From Gammaproteobacteria bacterium (GTDB lineage: Bacteria > Pseudomonadota > Gammaproteobacteria > Steroidobacterales > Steroidobacteraceae): a DNA stretch of 37,975 nt. Shown in pieces: positions 14,760 to 37,975 of this stretch. The stretch is from positions 8,133 to 46,107 of the forward strand of contig VEPJ01000075.1 of the NCBI GenBank assembly GCA_012026925.1. Direction: 5' to 3'. Under the pieces are notes generated by a model. That model made no database searches. It saw nothing but the letters and a program-made list of their open reading frames with translations, and was not told where the DNA came from. How positions within the stretch are numbered: position 1 is the stretch's first letter; every line of letters starts with the position of its first letter. The position numbers and the translations under genes are program-made.

Positions 14760-15164
14760 GTGTCCCGGGCCCTTCGCATCGTTCTCATCGCGCTCGCGGC
14801 GTTCGCGCTGTTCGAGTGGTGGTCCACGACGAACAGGCCGGCGCCGGCTACGGCCGCAGCACGCGCAACGGACGCCAGGGCAGGCCGTTATCCGACATTC
14901 CTCCCGCCCGAGGCGATCGGGACGCTGCACGCGATCGAGCGCGGCGGGCCTTACCCGTATGCGCGTGACGGCGTCGTCTTCCAGAACCGCGAGCGACGAC
15001 TGCCCGGGCGACCGCGCGGCTATTATCGCGAGTACACGGTGGAGACGCCGGGCGCGGGCGACCGGGGTGCGCGGCGCATCGTCGCCGGCGGCGACCCGCC
15101 GGAGGTGTTCTACTACACCGACGATCACTACCGGACGTTCCGGCGCGTGGAGATCGAACGATGA
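14760..15164 (+). CDS. Barnase-type (guanyl-specific) ribonuclease, N-terminal signal/anchor
   Basis: LPPEAIGTLHAIERGGPYPYARDGVVFQNRERRLPGRPRGYYREYTVETPG...RRIVAGG...FYYTDDHYRTFRRVE; E/R/H catalytic positions appear present. GTG start. Confidence 0.85.
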   Translation: MSRALRIVLIALAAFALFEWWSTTNRPAPATAAARATDARAGRYPTFLPPEAIGTLHAIERGGPYPYARDGVVFQNRERRLPGRPRGYYREYTVETPGAGDRGARRIVAGGDPPEVFYYTDDHYRTFRRVEIER

Positions 15165-15586
15165 GCGGCGTGCCGACTGACGGCGCAGGCGCCAGCGACG
15201 CCGTCGTGCGCGTCTCGAGTCTCACCGACGAGGCGACGGACGCGATCTGCATGCTGGCGGATTCGCTCGGCCTCGACTGCGTGCGCATCGACCTCGCGGG
15301 CTGCACGAGCAAGGGCGACCTGCTCGAGCGCGTGTCGCGCGCCCTCGGATTTCCGTCCTGGTTCGGCGGCAACTGGGACGCGCTCTTCGACTGCCTCGCC
15401 GACCTGGGCTGGCGCGCGGCGCCGGGTTACGTTCTCATCCTCGAGCATGCCGGGGAACTCCGGGCGACCGCGCCCGAGGTGTTCGACACGGCGGTGGCCA
15501 TCCTCGAGGACGCGGCCCGGGCGTGGCACGACCGCGGAGTCGCGTTTCGCGCTTTCGTGAGCGCGCCGTCCGGCCCGACTCCTTGA
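15161..15586 (+). CDS. Barstar-family ribonuclease inhibitor
   Basis: CTSKGDLLERVSRALGFPSWFGGNWDALFDCLADLGWRAAPGYVLILEHA; overlaps the RNase stop by 4 bp (ATGA). Confidence 0.88.
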   Translation: MSGVPTDGAGASDAVVRVSSLTDEATDAICMLADSLGLDCVRIDLAGCTSKGDLLERVSRALGFPSWFGGNWDALFDCLADLGWRAAPGYVLILEHAGELRATAPEVFDTAVAILEDAARAWHDRGVAFRAFVSAPSGPTP

Positions 15587-19187: not shown

Positions 19188-20855
19188 ATGTACACGAGCT
19201 TTTTCGGACTCCAGGAAAAGCCGTTCGCGATCACGCCGGACCCCCGCTACCTGTACCTCAGTGAGCGGCACGCGGAGGCGCTCGCGCACCTGCTGTACGG
19301 CATCAACGAGGCGGGCGGCTTCATCCAGCTCACGGGCGAGGTGGGCACCGGCAAGACGACCGTGATTCGCAGCCTGCTCGAGCAACTGCCCGGGCACGCG
19401 GACGTCGCCCTGATACTGAACCCGCGCGTCACGCCGGCCGAGTTCCTGCTCACCATCTGCGAGGAGCTGCACATCCCGGTGCCCGAGGCCGGCCGTGGCA
19501 GCACGAAGACGCTGATGGACCTGCTCGGCCGCCACCTGCTCGACACGCACGCGCGCGGGCGGCGCGTCGTGCTGATCGTCGACGAGGCGCAGAACCTGAG
19601 CACGCAGACGCTCGAGCAGGTGCGGCTCCTCACGAACCTCGAGACCGCCACGACCAAGCTGCTGCAGATCATCCTGATCGGGCAGCCGGAACTGCGCGAC
19701 CTGCTCGACAAGCCGGAGCTGCGGCAGCTCGCGCAGCGCATCACCGGGCGCTATCACCTGAACCCGCTCTCGGCCGAGGAAAGCGCGGGATACGTGAAGC
19801 ACCGCATGCGGGTCGCGGGTTCGACGGCCGAGGTGTTCACGCCGGCCGCACTGCGCGAGATCCATCGCCTGAGCGGCGGCGTGCCCCGCGTCATCAACGT
19901 GATCTGCGACCGCGCGCTGCTCGGCGCTTTCACCCAGGAAGATCATCGCGCCGGCGGGGCGCTCGTCCGGCAGGCCGCCTCCGAGGTTTACGGCCGGCCG
20001 GTCCCGGCGCCGTGGCTCAAGTGGGCGACGGCCGGCTCGGTCGCCGCTGCGGTCGCGCTCGTCGCGGTCGGCATCGCGAGCCTCATCTCGGCGAGACAGG
20101 GTGACAAACCTGCGCCCGTGGCCGCAGCCCCTGCATCCGCGCCGCCAGTTGCAGCCAGTGCGCCGGCAACCTCACCGCCGCCTGCAGGAACGCCCGCGTC
20201 GGCGCCGGCACCCGAGCCCGTCGTGCCGATCGACGAACTGCTGGCCCGGCACGCAAACGACACCACGACCGAGGCCGCGCTCGCACGGCTCTTCACGCTC
20301 TGGGGCGTGACCTACGACCCGACGAAGGGCAAGGGCTGCGACCAGGCCGCGCGGCAGGGCCTCGAGTGCCTCTTCCAGAAGGGGTCGTGGGCGCAGCTCC
20401 GCACGTTGAACCGGCCGGCGATCCTGACCCTGACCGACGACCTCGGCCGCACCCACCAGGTCCTGCTCACCGCGCTTTCCGACGACTCGGCGACGTTCGA
20501 GTTGGGCGGCGAGTCGCGCAAGGTCCCGATCGCCACCGCGTCGCGGTACTGGTTCGGCGACTTCCTGCTGCTCTGGCGGCCACCGATGGCCGTCGCCAAG
20601 TCGCTCGCGCCCGGCATGCGCGGTGACGACGTGCGCTGGTTGCGGGACAGCCTGCGCACCGCCCAGGGCCTGCCTGCCGTCAAAGGCGGCAGCGACGCTT
20701 ACGACGAAGACCTCACGCGTCTCGTGCAGGACTTCCAGCGCCAGCACCGCCTCACCGTGGACGGCGTCGCCGGCGTGCAGACGCAGATCGTGCTCGACAC
20801 CGCAATCGGCGCGACGGGTTCACCGACGATCGTGTCGCAGGTCGCGGGAGGCTGA
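19188..20855 (+). CDS. gspA: GspA/ExeA-like AAA ATPase with C-terminal peptidoglycan-binding domain
   Basis: MYTSFFGLQEKPFAITPDPRYLYLSERHAEALAHLLYGI, Walker A GEVGTGKTT, VLIVDEAQNLS; C-term MRGDDVRWLRDSLRTAQG...VQDFQRQHRLTVDGVAGVQTQIVLD. Confidence 0.9.
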   Translation: MYTSFFGLQEKPFAITPDPRYLYLSERHAEALAHLLYGINEAGGFIQLTGEVGTGKTTVIRSLLEQLPGHADVALILNPRVTPAEFLLTICEELHIPVPEAGRGSTKTLMDLLGRHLLDTHARGRRVVLIVDEAQNLSTQTLEQVRLLTNLETATTKLLQIILIGQPELRDLLDKPELRQLAQRITGRYHLNPLSAEESAGYVKHRMRVAGSTAEVFTPAALREIHRLSGGVPRVINVICDRALLGAFTQEDHRAGGALVRQAASEVYGRPVPAPWLKWATAGSVAAAVALVAVGIASLISARQGDKPAPVAAAPASAPPVAASAPATSPPPAGTPASAPAPEPVVPIDELLARHANDTTTEAALARLFTLWGVTYDPTKGKGCDQAARQGLECLFQKGSWAQLRTLNRPAILTLTDDLGRTHQVLLTALSDDSATFELGGESRKVPIATASRYWFGDFLLLWRPPMAVAKSLAPGMRGDDVRWLRDSLRTAQGLPAVKGGSDAYDEDLTRLVQDFQRQHRLTVDGVAGVQTQIVLDTAIGATGSPTIVSQVAGG

Positions 20856-20858
20856 ACC

Positions 20859-21671
20859 ATGTCGTTCATCCTCGATGCCCTGCGCAAGTCCGAGCACGAA
20901 CGCCAGCGACAGACGGGTCCGGCACTCGCGGAAGTCGCCGTCGCACCGCCGAAGCCGCGCAGCAACGTGTGGGCGACCGCGGCGATCGCGCTGCTGCTGG
21001 TGAATCTCGTGGCGGTCGGGGTGCTCCTGATCCGCAAGGCCACGCGCGAACCAGCAGCTGCGTCAGCGGTCGCGACCGAGCCCGCGCCGGCGGCGCCGGC
21101 ACCTGCGGCTGTGCCCCCGGCACAGGTTTCGATGACCCGGACTGCGCCCGCGACGAGTTCGGCACCCAGTCCGCCGCCCATGCTGCAGCCTGCGCGCGAG
21201 GCCGAGCCAGCCGGGGCTGCGAACAATCGCAATCCGCTCGAAGACGAGGTTTCGGGCGGCCAGCCCTCCCTCGACCCGCGGATGGCCGCGCAGGCGTCGG
21301 CCGTGCCGCCGGGGCCGCCCGCCGTCACCCGTGCGCCGAGTGGAAGAGGCACGGTGGTCTACGAGTCGTTGCCGGACTCGTCGGCCGTCGGGTCGCCGCG
21401 GTACGAGGCGGAGCCGCGTTCGAACCCCGCACCGTCAGCGGGCCCGAAGCTGCCGACCGCCGACGAGGTGTCCGCGGCCGGGGGCGTGCCGGCGCTCAAG
21501 CTCGAGCTGCACGTCTATTCGAACAAGCCCGCGGACCGGATGGTCTTCATCAATGCACACAAGTACCGCGAGGGCGACACGATGGTCGAGGGACCCGTCG
21601 TGCGCCAGATCACGCCGGACGGCGCGATCCTCGAGTACCGGGGCCGGCAGTTCGTCCTGACGCGGGACTGA
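20859..21671 (+). CDS. gspB: GspB-like general secretion pathway protein
   Basis: MSFILDALRKSEHERQRQTGP N-terminus; C-term LKLELHVYSNKPADRMVFINAHKYREGDTMVEGPVVRQITPDGAILEYRGRQFVL; adjacent to gspA-like gene. Confidence 0.88.
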   Translation: MSFILDALRKSEHERQRQTGPALAEVAVAPPKPRSNVWATAAIALLLVNLVAVGVLLIRKATREPAAASAVATEPAPAAPAPAAVPPAQVSMTRTAPATSSAPSPPPMLQPAREAEPAGAANNRNPLEDEVSGGQPSLDPRMAAQASAVPPGPPAVTRAPSGRGTVVYESLPDSSAVGSPRYEAEPRSNPAPSAGPKLPTADEVSAAGGVPALKLELHVYSNKPADRMVFINAHKYREGDTMVEGPVVRQITPDGAILEYRGRQFVLTRD

Positions 21672-31154: not shown

Positions 31155-31601
31155 TCAGGCCTGGGCGCGGACGCGCTGCGTGCCGTAGTGCACGCTCAGG
31201 CGCCGGACGCCCTTCATGCGCTTCGACGAGCGCCGGATCTCCTTCATGAGCCGGAGCAGGAGGTTGAGACTCTCGCGCTCACCTCCCGCGCAGAACTCCT
31301 CGGCCAGGCCGACGTGCAGGACCGTGATGTGCTCCAGGTCCGCGCGGGTATAGACCGCCACGCCGATCGGCAGGCCGGTGGCATTGTCCACGACGAAGAG
31401 CGACTGCACCTCGGGCAAGCCGGCGACCTTGACCCGGAGCCACCCATTGTCGTCGTGGATCTCCGGCGGCCCGTACTTGTCGATCGCGTCCACGATGCCG
31501 CTCGCAACGCGGCTCTGGCAGGCGTTGAAGAACAACAGCTGCTCGAGCGTGACGCGATGCTCGACGGCGATCCGCGAGGTGAAACTGACCGGTGTCCTCA
31601 T
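31155..31601 (-). CDS. Conserved hypothetical protein, possibly GNAT-like fold
   Basis: 148 aa from ATG 31601: MRTPVSFTSRIAVEHRVTLEQLLFFNACQSRVASGIVDAI...LFVVDNATGLPIGVAVYTRADLEHITVLHVGLAEEF...LLLRLMKEIRR. Stop codon abuts the previous gene's stop (tga|tca). Confidence 0.72.
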   Translation of the reverse strand: MRTPVSFTSRIAVEHRVTLEQLLFFNACQSRVASGIVDAIDKYGPPEIHDDNGWLRVKVAGLPEVQSLFVVDNATGLPIGVAVYTRADLEHITVLHVGLAEEFCAGGERESLNLLLRLMKEIRRSSKRMKGVRRLSVHYGTQRVRAQA

Positions 31602-31783: not shown

Positions 31784-33367
31784 GTGGACCTTGACGCGCG
31801 ACTGGTGCGCAATCACGCCGTGGCCAGCCCAGCACTGCAGCGACGACCCTCCCCCGTTCCCGAAGACCGCGATGCCGCGGTGCTCGTGGACGTGGTCGTG
31901 CTGTCGTCTGACATGGTCCTGTTCGACGCCATCAAGGCCGCCATCGGTGAGCGCAACCCCGTGTGGCGAGCGCGCTCGGCCGAGGAATCCGTCGATCTGC
32001 TGCTGACCGGCCGCTGCGGCGTCCTCCTGATGGACCTGGCCGCTGTCTCGACGCGTCCCGCGACGCTCGTGCAGCAGATCGCGGAGCAGTTCCCGGACGT
32101 CGTGGTGGTGGTCGCCGGCCGGCGCGAGGACGAGGCCCTGCTCGCCCAGCTGATCAGCGAGGGGCTCGTCTACCGGTTCATGCACAAGCCGCTGACGGCG
32201 AAGCGCGCGGGCATGTTCCTGAGCGCGGCGACCCGTTGTCATGTGGAACGCCGCGAGTCCCGCACTTCCCAGCCGCTGCTGCCGCTCTCGAGCGTGTTGC
32301 CCACGCGCGCCGACCCGCGGAAATGGCTGTTCGTCGCGGGCGGCCTCGCGATCTTCCTGGGGCTGGGCTGGCTGCTTGCAGGGGGCCCGTCGCGGAATGC
32401 GCATACGGTTTCCCCGGAAACCGGGTCGCGTACGCCGACCCCGGCCGTCGTGGCCGACACGGCTCGAGCCGACCCCGTGCTTGCTCGCGCCCGCGCTGCG
32501 TTGGCCGCCGGGCGCTATGAAGCACCGGCCGGCAACAACGCGCTCGACCTGTACGCTGCGGTGCTGCTCGCGCAGCCGTCGCAGGCAGAGGCGCGTGCCG
32601 GCCTCGACAAGACCGTCGCGCACCTCGTGACCGCCGCGGAGAGGGCGGCGGGCACCGGTGACCGGACGGAAGCCGAACGGCTGCTGAAGCGCATCCGCGC
32701 CGCGGATCCATCGAGCGCCGCGGCGGATCACCTGGCCGCCATGCTCGCCCCGCACGCGCCACCGGCGGCCGCGCCTGCCGCTGTCACGGCGAATGCGGAA
32801 GCGTCACGCGCGACCGCGGCCCCTGCTGCGGCGCCGACCGGGCAGGCGCCCGTCGCCAAGGTAACGGTCCGGCCGGCTGTCGCTCCCGATCCTCTGAGCC
32901 CCCACTACAGCAACGCCGCTGATCTGCATGCAACGAGCCGTCACGGGGCCGGCCGTGTGCGGAGCTACGGCGCGCCGATTTCCACGGGCCTGCCCATCGC
33001 GGGCTACGTGAAGAATGCAGCCCCGGAACCGGCGCCCGCTCCAGCCACCGCGCCTGCCACGGACGCCGGCGCCGTCGCCGCCCTCGCGCTGCCCGCGGAC
33101 GCGAACGACCGCATCTTCGCCACCGACCCGGTGTACCCGCCCGCTGCCCTGGTGAACCGCATCGAGGGCTGGGTCGAGCTGATGTTCACGATCACCGAGA
33201 CGGGCGCCGTGCGCGACATCGAAGTCGTGGATGCGCAGCCGCGCGGCGTGTTCGAATCGGCGGCGACACAGGCGCTGGGCAACTGGCGCTTCAGGCCGCG
33301 GCTCGCGAACGGCCAGCCGGTCCCGCGCCGTTCCGTCGTCACGCTCCGCTTCAACGTCGACGGCTGA
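31784..33367 (+). CDS. Receiver-like domain / TM / TonB C-terminal domain fusion protein
   Basis: N-term VVVLSSDMVLFDAIKAAI...GVLLMDLAAVS...VVVVVAGRRED...YRFMHKPLTA (REC-like); TM WLFVAGGLAIFLGLGWLLAG; Pro/Ala-rich linker; C-term PVYPPAALVNRIEGWVELMFTITETGAVRDIEVVDAQPRGVFESAATQALGNWRFRPRL (TonB_C). GTG start. Confidence 0.85.
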   Translation: MDLDARLVRNHAVASPALQRRPSPVPEDRDAAVLVDVVVLSSDMVLFDAIKAAIGERNPVWRARSAEESVDLLLTGRCGVLLMDLAAVSTRPATLVQQIAEQFPDVVVVVAGRREDEALLAQLISEGLVYRFMHKPLTAKRAGMFLSAATRCHVERRESRTSQPLLPLSSVLPTRADPRKWLFVAGGLAIFLGLGWLLAGGPSRNAHTVSPETGSRTPTPAVVADTARADPVLARARAALAAGRYEAPAGNNALDLYAAVLLAQPSQAEARAGLDKTVAHLVTAAERAAGTGDRTEAERLLKRIRAADPSSAAADHLAAMLAPHAPPAAAPAAVTANAEASRATAAPAAAPTGQAPVAKVTVRPAVAPDPLSPHYSNAADLHATSRHGAGRVRSYGAPISTGLPIAGYVKNAAPEPAPAPATAPATDAGAVAALALPADANDRIFATDPVYPPAALVNRIEGWVELMFTITETGAVRDIEVVDAQPRGVFESAATQALGNWRFRPRLANGQPVPRRSVVTLRFNVDG

Positions 33368-34622
33368 GCCCGACGTGCTGCCCGCCGAGGGCCCAGGCGA
33401 CGACCGCCCAGGCGGCCGCGATCACGGCCCCGCACCAGGCGATCCCGCTGACGCCGAGGTCGAACGTGGACTTCACCAGGGCGTGCACGGACGCCGCCGT
33501 CGCGTCGCCGCCCCGATACACGAACGTGTCGATCAGGCTCTTCGCCTTGTACCGCTCCTCGCGGCTTACGACCGTGTAGAGCGCGTCGCGTGAGGGCCGC
33601 GTGATCGAGTATTCGCCGATGCGCCGGATCATCATCACGCCGACCAGCACGACGAAGGTGGGGGCGCTCGCCAGCACGCCGTAGCCCAGGGTCATGAGCA
33701 GGGGAATGCTCACGATCAGCGCGCGGAAGCCGAACCAGCGGTAGAGCCTGCCGAACAGGAAGAGCTGCATCACGAGCGAGCCGGCCTGGGTCCAGAAGTC
33801 GATCGTGCTGAAGAAGGCGGTGCGGGCGTCACGGTCCTTGAACACTTCCGCCACCATCGCCTGCTGCTCGAGGTACAGGAACGTCGAGACCCACGTGAGC
33901 AGGAAGACGAAGAGGGCGATGAGCGCGAGGTAGCGCGACTGCAGCACCTGGCGGAAGGCGGCAAGTGCCGTTCCTCCGAGCTTCGCATCACGATCGGCGC
34001 CCTCGGCGGTGTTCTCGCCATGGTGCCGGTGCCAGTGCAGCACACGCAGCATGAAACCGAGCGCGATCGCGAGCAACGCGGCCGAGACGAGCAGCAGGTT
34101 GATGGTGCCGAGCGGCCTCGCGAGTCGTTGCGCCAGGAAAGGACCGTTCAGCCCGCCGAGGCTGAGCCCCGCGGCGATGAATCCGAACAGCCGGCCGGCC
34201 TGCTCGCGCGTGAACACGTCGGCCATCAGGCTCCAGAACACGGCCACGACGAACAGCACGAACACGCTCACCCAGACGAAGTACGCGCGCGCGATCCAGG
34301 CGTGGTCCTGCTGCAGGTTGAACCAGGCGTGGAAGCCGACGATGTTCAGGATGAAGAACAGGTACACCCAGGGCAGGAACGCCGAGCGCCGGTAGCGCGA
34401 CGTGAGCCAGCCGTACAGGGGTTGCACGAGCAGCATCCCGGCAAACGTGCCCCAGAAGAGCGCGGGCAGCGTCTCGACGCCCGAGGTAAGGCCCATCGTC
34501 TCCCGGATCGGGCGCAGGATGGCGTACGCCGAGAACATGAAGAAGGCGCAGCAGAATGCAGCGAGTGCGCCGCCAAGCTCGTGCGGCCTGGCGTTGATCG
34601 CTCCCGCGAGAGCGCGCCTCAC
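33351..34622 (-). CDS. MFS-type transporter, NTP/NDP exchange transporter-like
   Basis: Multi-TM; FFMFSAYAILRPIRETMGLTSGVETLPALFWGTFAGMLLVQPLYGWLTSRYRR, RPSRDALYTVVSREERYKAKSLIDTFVYRGGDATAA; GTG 34622 overlaps upstream stop. Confidence 0.85.
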   Translation of the reverse strand: MRRALAGAINARPHELGGALAAFCCAFFMFSAYAILRPIRETMGLTSGVETLPALFWGTFAGMLLVQPLYGWLTSRYRRSAFLPWVYLFFILNIVGFHAWFNLQQDHAWIARAYFVWVSVFVLFVVAVFWSLMADVFTREQAGRLFGFIAAGLSLGGLNGPFLAQRLARPLGTINLLLVSAALLAIALGFMLRVLHWHRHHGENTAEGADRDAKLGGTALAAFRQVLQSRYLALIALFVFLLTWVSTFLYLEQQAMVAEVFKDRDARTAFFSTIDFWTQAGSLVMQLFLFGRLYRWFGFRALIVSIPLLMTLGYGVLASAPTFVVLVGVMMIRRIGEYSITRPSRDALYTVVSREERYKAKSLIDTFVYRGGDATAASVHALVKSTFDLGVSGIAWCGAVIAAAWAVVAWALGGQHVGLSRRR

Positions 34623-36019
34623 GCCACCGTTCCCAGGTCGACTCGCGCCCCGCGCTGGGCGATCTCCGCGCGGACACCCTGCTGCTGCAGCTTGTCCCGC
34701 AGCCCTTCGGACGCCTCGCGCTCGCCGTGCACCAGCCACACCGGGGGCTTGCCCTGCACTCCCGCGTACCAGCGCAGGAGATCCGCCTGGTCGCCGTGCG
34801 CGGAAAAGCCGCCGAGCGTGTGGACCTGCGCCCGCACCGGGATCGGCGCCCCGTTGACGCGGACCTGCTCGCGGCCGTCCACGATCGCGCGCCCGAGCGT
34901 GCCCTGGGCCTGGAACCCCGAGAACACCACGTGGCATTGCGGGCGCGACAGGTTGTGCTTCAGGTGGTGCACGATGCGACCGCCCGTGCACATGCCGCTG
35001 CCCGCGATCACGATCGCGCCGCCCGCCATCCGGTTGATCGTCATCGACTCATCGACCGTCCGGCAGAGCGTGAGGTTCGGCAGCAGCGGCATGCGCTCGG
35101 AACGGGTGCGCCACTCGCGAGCTTCCTCGTCGAAGAGCTCGGCGTGGCGCCAGTACACGCCCGTCGCCTCGATCGCCATCGGGCTGTCGAGGAATATCCG
35201 CCAGTCGGCAAGACGCCACGCGTCGAAGTGCGCGCCGAGCTCGTAGAGCAATTCCTGGCTGCGCCCGACGGCGAACGCGGGAATGAGTACGTTGCCGCCG
35301 TCCGCGCGCGCGGCGCGCAGGATCTCGCCGAACTCGACCAGCGTCGCCTCGCGATCGCGGTGCAGGCGATTGCCGTAGGTGCTCTCCATGACGACGGCGT
35401 CGGCTGCGAGCCCGGCCTCCGGATCACGCAGGATCGGGGTGTCGTACTGGCCGAGGTCGCCACTGAACACGAGCCGCCGCTCGATCCCGCCTTCGCCGAG
35501 GCGAAGGCAGACGCACGCCGAGCCGAGGATGTGCCCGGCATCGCGGAACGTGAGCTCGACGCCCGGCACCACTTCGAAGGCCCTGCCGTACTGGACCGCG
35601 CGGATCGTGCGCAGCGTCGCCTCCGCGTCCTCCGGCGTATAGAGCGGCTCGACGCGGCCCTTCATCCCGTCGCGCTGGCGGTGGCGGCTTTCGCGCTCGG
35701 CGTCCCGCGCGGCCATCGTCGCGCTGTCCATGAGCAGGATGCGGGCCAGCTCCCGGCAGGCAGTCGTCGCGTACACCGGCCCGCGGAAGCCGCGCTTGCG
35801 CAGCAGCGGCAGGCGGCCGCAATGATCGATGTGCGCGTGGCTCAGGATGACCGCGTCGATCGCGGCGGCATCGAAGGGAAACGGCGCGCGATTGCGCTCG
35901 TCGGGCGCGGCGCCGCCCTGTATCAGGCCGCAATCGAGCAGCAGGCGCCGCCCGCCAACGTCGAGTATGTGGCAAGAGCCGGTGACTTCACCGGCCGCGC
36001 CGAAGAACTCCAGGTGCAT
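34619..36019 (-). CDS. Metallo-beta-lactamase fold / beta-CASP (Ysh1/CPSF73-like) RNA-metabolism hydrolase
   Basis: VILSHAHIDHCGRLPLLRKRGFRGPVYAT, FRDAGHILGSACVCLRL, VFSGDLGQYDTPILRDP, IVIAGSGMCTGGRIVHHLKHNL, HTLGGFSAHGDQADLLRW. Confidence 0.94.
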   Translation of the reverse strand: MHLEFFGAAGEVTGSCHILDVGGRRLLLDCGLIQGGAAPDERNRAPFPFDAAAIDAVILSHAHIDHCGRLPLLRKRGFRGPVYATTACRELARILLMDSATMAARDAERESRHRQRDGMKGRVEPLYTPEDAEATLRTIRAVQYGRAFEVVPGVELTFRDAGHILGSACVCLRLGEGGIERRLVFSGDLGQYDTPILRDPEAGLAADAVVMESTYGNRLHRDREATLVEFGEILRAARADGGNVLIPAFAVGRSQELLYELGAHFDAWRLADWRIFLDSPMAIEATGVYWRHAELFDEEAREWRTRSERMPLLPNLTLCRTVDESMTINRMAGGAIVIAGSGMCTGGRIVHHLKHNLSRPQCHVVFSGFQAQGTLGRAIVDGREQVRVNGAPIPVRAQVHTLGGFSAHGDQADLLRWYAGVQGKPPVWLVHGEREASEGLRDKLQQQGVRAEIAQRGARVDLGTVA

Positions 36020-36028
36020 CCGCTCGCC

Positions 36029-37975
36029 TCAGGCGATTCGCTGGCCGGCCGGAGCTTCTGGCTCCGGCTGCGTCTGCCGGTCCCGAAGGACCCGGACGCA
36101 GGCCTTGACCACCCTCGCATCGTAACGGCGACCGGCCTGCGATTGCAGTTCCTCGAGGCAGGCGGCGAGCGACAGGGCCGCGCGCTGCGGCCGGGGGGAG
36201 AGCATCGCCTCGACCGCGTCCGCGACCGCGACGATGCGCGCTTCGAGCAGGATCTCTTCGCCCTTCATTCCGCGCGGATAACCCGAGCCATCGAGGCGCT
36301 CGTGGTGCTGCCGTACGGCCTCGGCGACCGGCCATGGGAATTCGATGCGTCGCAGCGTCTCGTAGCCGCGCTCGGCGTGCGACTTCACCAGCTCGAACTC
36401 GGCCGGCGTCAGCGTGCCGGGCCGCCACAGGATCTCCCGCGGGATCTGCAGCATGCCGACATCGATCAGCTGGCCGGTGACACGCAGGCCGCGCACCGAG
36501 TGCCCGGGCAGGCCCATCGCCGTCGCGCTGCCGGCGGCGCGTTCGCCCACTCGCTTCGCACGCCCCGTCGTGCAGGTGTCCTGTGCATCCGACAGCGCGC
36601 CGATCGCGTCCACCGCGCCCAGCATGACGCGCTCCATGTGATCCATGGCGCTCACGACCTCGGCGTCCGAGCGCCGGCGGCGCAGCACCCTGGCCAGCGT
36701 GTCCGTGACCTGCGTCGCGTGGCGGTGATCGTCGTCGTCGAAGGGCTCCTTCTTGTTCGCGAGCACCAGCGCACCCGCGAGGCGCCCGCCATCGAGCATC
36801 GGCACCGCCAGCTGGCGCCGCAGTGCGCCGGGAAGCCCCGCCTGCCGCAGGCTGCCGGTGCCCTCTTCGCCCTCGCGGACGATCGGGCGCTGCGAGCTCA
36901 GGCACTCGTAGAGCGCGGTGTCGGCGGGGGGCAACCCACGCCAGCGCGTGAGCGGGGAAGATTCCCTGGCGGTGGATTCGCCGTCGCGCCGCGCAGCGAG
37001 CTCGATCTGCCCGGCCTCGTGCGTCGCGATGAACAGGTAGCCGGAGTCGCTGCCGGTGAGCTGCTGCAGCAGGTCGAGCGCGTGCATCAGCGTCTCGGAT
37101 TCCGTGTACGAATGCGCGTGCTGGGCGAGGTCTAGCAATCCGAGTGCGCGCCGCAGGTCGCGATCGGCCCGCTCCTGCGCCCGGCGCCGAGCCGAGGCAT
37201 CGCGGACCGCGAGCATGCGATTTCCGCCCGGGCCGCCGACGAAGGAGCTCGCGACTTCGACGTCGAACACCGAGCCGTCGGGCCTGCGCCAGCGCGTTTC
37301 CTGCAGGACCTGGCCTGCGCTGCCGAGCGCGACGCTGCGGATCGTCGATTCGCCGGCGGCGCCCTGCTCGAACTGCTGGACCGGGAGCCCCTCCACCTTG
37401 CCGGCCTCGAGTCCGAGCAGCGCGTGGAACGCCGCGTTTGCGTACTGGATGTGGCCCGAGGGGTCGACGATGCAGGCCGGAATCGGCGCATCCTCGAGCG
37501 CCGACGCGTGCGCGACCGCGATCTGTTGCGCCGCGCGCTCCGATCGCTCGGCCGTGACGTCGCGCCCCGTCGTGAGCCAGCAGGCGCGGCCGGCGTATGA
37601 CACCGAGACGCGGCGCAACTCGAGGATCGCCGGCGTGCCGTCCGGTCGGGCAAACGCGAGGTCCACGGCGCGGGCGGGGTCCTCGCCGGGCGCGTAACCC
37701 GGCAGCAGTTCGACGATCGAGCGGCCCTGCAGCTTCCCGGGTGCGATCCCGAGCAGCGCCGCCGCCGAGTCGCTGACCGCGCGCAGCTCGTGCGTCTCCA
37801 TGTCCGAAAGCAGCGTCGGCAGCGGGTGCGCGCGCAATGCCCGCTCGGCGTCCGTCGCCGCAGCCTGCGCCTGCGCGCGGCTCGCCTGCAGCTCCGCGAG
37901 GCGCGACTCAAGCACGCCGCCCCGCGCCAGTTCTGCGCGCGATTCCTCGGCCGCGCCACGCGCCTGGGGCTCGGC
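36029..37975 (-). CDS. PAS-PAS-GAF-degenerate HD-GYP protein, 5' end beyond window (partial)
   Basis: PAS segments (DAPIPACIVDPSGHIQYANAAFHALLGLEAG), GAF-like (SDSGYLFIATHEAGQIELAAR...LAVPMLDGGRLAGALVLANK), C-term LIDVGMLQIPREILWRPGTLTPAEFELVKSHAERGYETLRRI...VRQHHERLDGSGYPRG. Frame stays open (AEPQARGAAEESRAELARGG) to the window edge. Confidence 0.88.
   Translation of the reverse strand, partial: AEPQARGAAEESRAELARGGVLESRLAELQASRAQAQAAATDAERALRAHPLPTLLSDMETHELRAVSDSAAALLGIAPGKLQGRSIVELLPGYAPGEDPARAVDLAFARPDGTPAILELRRVSVSYAGRACWLTTGRDVTAERSERAAQQIAVAHASALEDAPIPACIVDPSGHIQYANAAFHALLGLEAGKVEGLPVQQFEQGAAGESTIRSVALGSAGQVLQETRWRRPDGSVFDVEVASSFVGGPGGNRMLAVRDASARRRAQERADRDLRRALGLLDLAQHAHSYTESETLMHALDLLQQLTGSDSGYLFIATHEAGQIELAARRDGESTARESSPLTRWRGLPPADTALYECLSSQRPIVREGEEGTGSLRQAGLPGALRRQLAVPMLDGGRLAGALVLANKKEPFDDDDHRHATQVTDTLARVLRRRRSDAEVVSAMDHMERVMLGAVDAIGALSDAQDTCTTGRAKRVGERAAGSATAMGLPGHSVRGLRVTGQLIDVGMLQIPREILWRPGTLTPAEFELVKSHAERGYETLRRIEFPWPVAEAVRQHHERLDGSGYPRGMKGEEILLEARIVAVADAVEAMLSPRPQRAALSLAACLEELQSQAGRRYDARVVKACVRVLRDRQTQPEPEAPAGQRIA

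Follow-up and report, generated by a model that had tools for sequence, protein, structure and literature searches.

A pseudo-receiver domain fused to a TonB-type protein in the Steroidobacteraceae and the signalling genes adjoining its relatives

The analysed stretch of DNA (the window; 37,975 nt from a member of the Steroidobacteraceae) contains an uninterrupted open reading frame of 527 codons, which starts with GTG and encodes a 527-aa product (Table 1), hereafter the REC-TonB protein. The GTG start is plausible, as residues 1-30 align with the N-termini of the congeners' proteins. No strong ribosome-binding site is visible upstream of it, and scanning for promoters and terminators gave nothing useful. 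The upstream neighbour has no Pfam match. The REC-TonB gene is monocistronic with no co-directional upstream partner, and an operon within the window was rejected because the flanking genes are divergent or convergent and unrelated. In agreement with the first-pass annotation, genes for ExbB/ExbD, a histidine kinase or a TonB-dependent receptor did not turn up when about 30 window ORFs were scanned with Pfam.

Table 1. Features of the REC-TonB gene and its neighbours (window coordinates)
Feature	Position	Strand	Basis
Whole gene: pseudo-REC, TM, TPR-like block, linker, TonB_C	31784..33367	+	Open frame; architecture conserved in relatives; domains under purifying selection
Pseudo-receiver domain, residues 33-165	31880..32278	+	AF2 pLDDT 93.4; profile vs PDB receivers E 8e-13
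S41-S42-D43 in beta1, where the metal-binding acid pair is missing; T/S-x-D as consensus	31904..31912	+	Alignment count
D84, Asp at phospho-acceptor position (beta3)	32033..32035	+	Alignment count
A111, where beta4 Thr/Ser is expected	32114..32116	+	Alignment
K135 of the beta5 K-P motif (K135-P136)	32186..32188	+	Alignment count
Single TM helix, about residues 181-203	32324..32392	+	Hydropathy peak; full-length AF2 model
Helical TPR-like block, residues 229-323, predicted to be periplasmic	32468..32752	+	AF2 pLDDT about 96; weak TPR_14 match
Pro/Ala-rich disordered linker, residues 326-438	32759..33097	+	pLDDT mostly <50; fast evolving
TonB C-terminal domain, residues 449-524	33128..33355	+	PF03544 E 1.2e-16; TIGR01352 E 2e-12
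Divergent upstream neighbour, small protein of unknown family	31155..31601	-	Conserved in genus and four loci beyond
Convergent downstream neighbour, MFS transporter	33351..34991	-	Pfam scan

Elsewhere in the window, a PAS-GAF-HD signalling protein is encoded at 36029-37915 (-), and at 15161-15586 a Barstar-family gene precedes one for a DUF4286/DUF3667 protein. At 19188-21671, about 10-12 kb upstream of the REC-TonB gene, the gene for an ExeA/GspA-like AAA protein precedes one for a type II secretion B (T2SSB) protein. This pair recurs upstream of the gene in several relatives, at a distance, and was not adopted as a functional partner.

The first-pass annotation described one ORF with a receiver-like N-terminus, a single TM segment, a Pro/Ala-rich linker and a TonB_C terminus, and ORF analysis, Pfam, profile comparison and AlphaFold2 bear this out. 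The TPR-like block between the TM segment and the linker was absent from that description. The TM peak has the sequence WLFVAGGLAIFLGLGWLLAGG; a second hydropathy peak corresponds to beta1 of the receiver domain, leaving one real TM segment. PF03544 scores 61 bits against a cut-off of 24.6, and the full-length AF2 model places the receiver domain at about residues 34-165, the TM helix at about 178-199, the TPR-like block, confidently helical, at 231-321 and TonB_C at about residues 440-525. Two other traits of the TonB family are present, namely one TM anchor and an extended Pro-rich linker that is periplasmic by predicted topology.

From the single sequence, Response_reg (PF00072) matches the N-terminus below threshold (E 0.017 for the full length and 0.0012 for the domain alone). 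With a 29-member profile of relatives, the best PDB matches are receivers (3kcn, E 8e-13; 3hv2; HupR). AlphaFold2 models the domain confidently with (beta-alpha)5 order, and the top folds returned by Foldseek against the PDB are all receivers (HupR, 3hv2, NtrX, FrzS). Since the profile of relatives and the structure model agree, the receiver fold proposed for the N-terminal domain at first pass is beyond doubt; the same profile match and model rule out a chance hydrophobic ORF in its place.

Active-site residues were counted in an alignment of 78 receiver domains, made up of 74 pseudo-REC domains and 4 canonical ones for comparison. None of the fused, HK-operon or tandem copies retains the beta1 acid pair, which is mostly replaced by T/S-x; at position 41, T or S stands in 68 of the 70 fused or tandem copies and D in none. 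Asp occupies the D84 position in 72/74 copies (36/38 fused, 9/9 HK-operon, 23/23 tandem and 4/4 split), the two exceptions being Asn, both in family f9. At beta4, every tandem copy and the majority of the fused ones have Ala, only 2/38 fused copies have Thr, and the HK-operon clade shows Phe, Val or Leu instead. K135 is kept in 28/38 fused and 23/23 tandem copies and is lost in the HK-operon clade. Thus, from the full receiver set (acid pair, Asp, Thr/Ser and Lys), the window protein keeps Asp and Lys alone, and the residues had been read correctly at first pass.

A pseudo-receiver is a receiver fold without the residues required for phosphotransfer (PMC12632262). Judged by its residues, the N-terminal domain is a pseudo-receiver in this usual definition, and the label given to it earlier holds by both fold and lost residues. 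It is not classed as an aspartate-less receiver (ALR, PMC4395418), because D84 is present and conserved. Direct phosphorylation of the domain looks unlikely. Gating of a TonB-type protein by a pseudo-receiver had been suggested to proceed through phosphorylation or protein contact; the former is disfavoured by the loss of both metal ligands and the beta4 Thr/Ser, while protein contact as the means of phospho-signalling control is supported by the gene context in relatives described below.

An orthologue of the REC-TonB gene was found in all 8 congeners searched. Within the genus, the receiver domain is the slowest segment at the protein level (dN 0.14-0.15; dN/dS 0.17-0.23), and constraint on the TM segment and its flanks is weak (dN/dS 0.57-0.99). 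TonB_C is missing in three of the 8 congeners (G004, G005 and G008; loci L012, L011 and L042), where no recognisable domain or remnant occurs and the receiver and TPR block are still under purifying selection. Genomes G035 and G352 and those of family f9 also lack TonB_C. This pattern suggests that the receiver part can serve without a TonB_C of its own, perhaps together with a paralogue.

Many genera of the family share the full architecture, which also occurs in families f2, f7, f11, f12 and f15 of the order; the relatives compared include Pseudomonadota MAG ZC4RG24. In f7, two receivers stand in tandem before the TM segment, the first without the Asp and the second keeping it (L086-L109; e.g., L055:9513-12392). 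In f3, f4 and f5, a canonical receiver followed by a pseudo-receiver on one protein is encoded directly beside a separate TonB_C gene. Such a split of the fusion is seen at L135, L136, L139 and L140. Outside the order, no further case was found in about 140 genomes of the class searched with the full profile or in about 300 genomes of the phylum searched with the REC profile; the class- and phylum-wide matches were rejected as TonB_C-type, linker-region or ordinary receiver matches. A plasmid search gave TonB_C matches only. Lineage-wide conservation and the dN/dS values rule out a chance fusion or frameshift. The fusion noted at first pass is thus real, and it is a lineage-wide architecture rather than a rare one-off.

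In relatives, the gene is repeatedly found beside a phospho-signalling cassette. All 14 assessable HK-CheY-CheX cassettes in the family adjoin a TonB protein of the REC-TonB kind; the 14 include G014 and G022, where the contig reaches no further into the TonB gene than its TonB_C end, and the G035 copy without TonB_C, whereas G008 (split over two contigs, consistently) was left out, contig ends truncate the cassettes of G001, G002, G009 and G015, and G030 has a weak CheX match outside such a cassette. In G011, G035, G019 and G024, the order is histidine kinase (Hpt and HATPase_c), CheY-like regulator, CheX and then the REC-TonB gene, with overlapping gene ends at the junction of cassette and TonB gene in G011 and G035. 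The CheX and TonB genes overlap at L044 and L048, and the TonB and kinase genes at L050. In a second clade, the gene directly precedes kinase-CheY-CheX (G005, G010, G012, G013, G017, G018, G026 and G029), with a Ser/Thr kinase gene in between in G010 and CheY not picked up in G013. The more degenerate N-terminus of this clade is the same domain by profile comparison (98.8% probability, E 8e-17) and is likewise matched by PDB receivers.

The partner CheY is canonical, with all active-site residues (DD, D, S, K) kept, and the partner CheX keeps the E-x-x-N motif. In the linked kinase, two TM segments accompany a small extracytoplasmic region, which gives a PilJ-type match in G051. In the family, no gene other than that of the REC-TonB family joins the cassette consistently. 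In a tree of 45 proteins, those linked to a kinase fall in several separate clades and need 5 changes, a number that none of 500 shuffles matched or undercut, which suggests that the kinase link is either old or was made repeatedly. Another, six-member clade (100/100 support) has a receiver-Ser/Thr kinase gene directly downstream of the REC-TonB gene, overlapping it in G022. A receiver-like domain fused to a Ser/Thr kinase was noted directly downstream at L036, L047, L050, L127, L129 and L130.

No TonB_C or pseudo-REC gene was found near seven HK-CheY-CheX cassettes outside the order (G660, G710, G144 and G647) or near the f16 cassette (G051). Loci L197 and L242-L247, in other families of the class, carry a kinase-CheY-CheX cassette without a TonB gene. 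The cassette was found neither in the window's own genome (72% complete) nor in congeners G003, G006 and G007. In the congeners that have it, it is adjoined by a different paralogue and not by the orthologue of the window gene.

Signal transfer across the cell envelope is the probable role of the REC-TonB protein, because its relatives' genes in many genera adjoin phospho-signalling genes. It may be an inner-membrane-anchored trans-envelope adaptor, in which the pseudo-receiver docks a phospho-signalling partner and TonB_C acts at the outer membrane; we infer the docking, the direction of the signal and the outer-membrane target, and regard this adaptor as evenly poised between right and wrong. 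The cytoplasmic head would be a disabled receiver serving as a docking surface. Its partner could be the phosphorylated CheY-like regulator of the HK-CheY-CheX cassette or the kinase itself and, in the sister clade, the receiver-Ser/Thr kinase. Binding would alter the state or oligomerisation of the head, and this change would be passed through the TM helix, the TPR-like block and the extended linker to alter the action of TonB_C at the outer membrane. The switch would be reset when CheX dephosphorylates CheY. For the window protein, the partner would have to be encoded elsewhere or be a different receiver, since no partner gene is linked to it.

Against such docking stand the monocistronic window gene and the missing cassette in its own genome and in G003, G006 and G007. 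Furthermore, TonB_C would not always be the output, because three congeners keep REC-TM-TPR without it, and adjacency leaves the direction of the signal undefined. Taken a step further, and only tentatively, docking could be part of an undescribed route, in which a chemotaxis-like cascade of membrane kinase, CheY and CheX has a TonB-type trans-envelope protein as its direct output via the pseudo-receiver, so that a phospho-signal would be conveyed mechanically to the outer membrane.

As adjacency alone is compatible with either direction, the signal might instead run inwards, with TonB_C and the TPR block sensing the state of the periplasm or outer membrane for the pseudo-receiver to report to the kinase/CheY cassette. 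The TM segment and linker are nearly unconstrained, as expected of a tether, and, because it is found elsewhere with no TonB gene beside it, the cassette may have a different output. This outside-in sensor is nevertheless unlikely, as the linked kinase has a small extracytoplasmic sensor of its own (the PilJ match in f16) and nothing but the TonB protein is consistently added to the cassette.

The protein could also be an ordinary ExbBD-powered TonB, whose head serves only for dimerisation or cellular placement. Its TonB_C is intact, and the window genome has five MotA/ExbB matches and 13 TonB-dependent receptors. In TonB, the TM segment carries a motor-binding SHLS motif with its His (PMC12204202). 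This His is absent from 41/45 family members, the window protein included, and is present in three other TonBs of the window genome (L001, L002 and L004); its loss is not exclusive to the REC-TonB family, as it is likewise missing from short TonBs elsewhere in the class. Since the His is missing so widely and the TM segment with its flanks is weakly constrained, an energy-coupling (ExbBD) role appears doubtful. Moreover, the exbB-type genes of the genome lie on other contigs, and an ordinary TonB would leave the signalling linkage without explanation, so this alternative is improbable. That D84 is still phosphorylated, as the first-pass annotation suggested, making the domain a slow or metal-independent receiver that switches TonB coupling, is very improbable despite the prevalence of the Asp and, in most copies, of the Lys, for the acid pair and the Thr/Ser of beta4 are gone, as is the Lys in the HK-operon clade, the cassette brings its own fully canonical CheY, and the Asp could be retained for fold or surface.

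The adaptor reading bears on the cytoplasmic control of outer-membrane events, which is poorly understood in bacteria. The mode of action of pseudo-receivers is likewise an open question (PMC12632262). The REC-TonB family would be a tractable case, with a clear candidate partner (canonical CheY and CheX) that relatives encode in the same operon and a TonB_C output that is assayable across the envelope, and it would bring a signalling class into a family of proteins known chiefly for energy transduction.

Similarly to TonB energy transducers (PF03544, TIGR01352), the REC-TonB protein has a single TM segment, a Pro-rich periplasmic linker and TonB_C. Unlike them, it carries a cytoplasmic receiver-fold domain of about 130 residues and a TPR-like block, its TM segment lacks the motor-binding His, and no exbBD linkage occurs in the window. 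With pseudo-receivers and atypical receivers (PMC12632262; ALR, PMC4395418; FrzS, PMC1974792), several of which are thought to act through protein contact, it shares a receiver fold with missing active-site residues; it differs from ALR domains in keeping the Asp and in being fused to a TM segment and TonB_C. The word 'TonB' is absent from the main text of PMC12632262 and PMC4395418. SjdR of Anabaena is likewise TonB-like, with a putative cytosolic extension at its N-terminus, and has a non-uptake role; in contrast, it is a cyanobacterial septum protein with an incomplete TonB part, and the passages on it that were consulted name no receiver domain (PMC8262864).

Term searches of the open-licence PMC literature found no description of a receiver-TonB protein and no TonB type with such a head, so nothing there shows the architecture to be a common, already characterised one. 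The receiver and TonB families are both known; their fusion, undescribed in that literature, has a chance of being a new signalling route. New here is the family-wide pairing of HK-CheY-CheX cassettes with a protein of the REC-TonB kind. Myxococcus GltJ carries cytoplasmic regulatory domains. These differ from the REC-TonB head, and GltJ belongs to the gliding machinery; its TonB-like C-terminal part (NCBIfam NF033761) nevertheless gives a weak match for 2/22 REC-TonB members.
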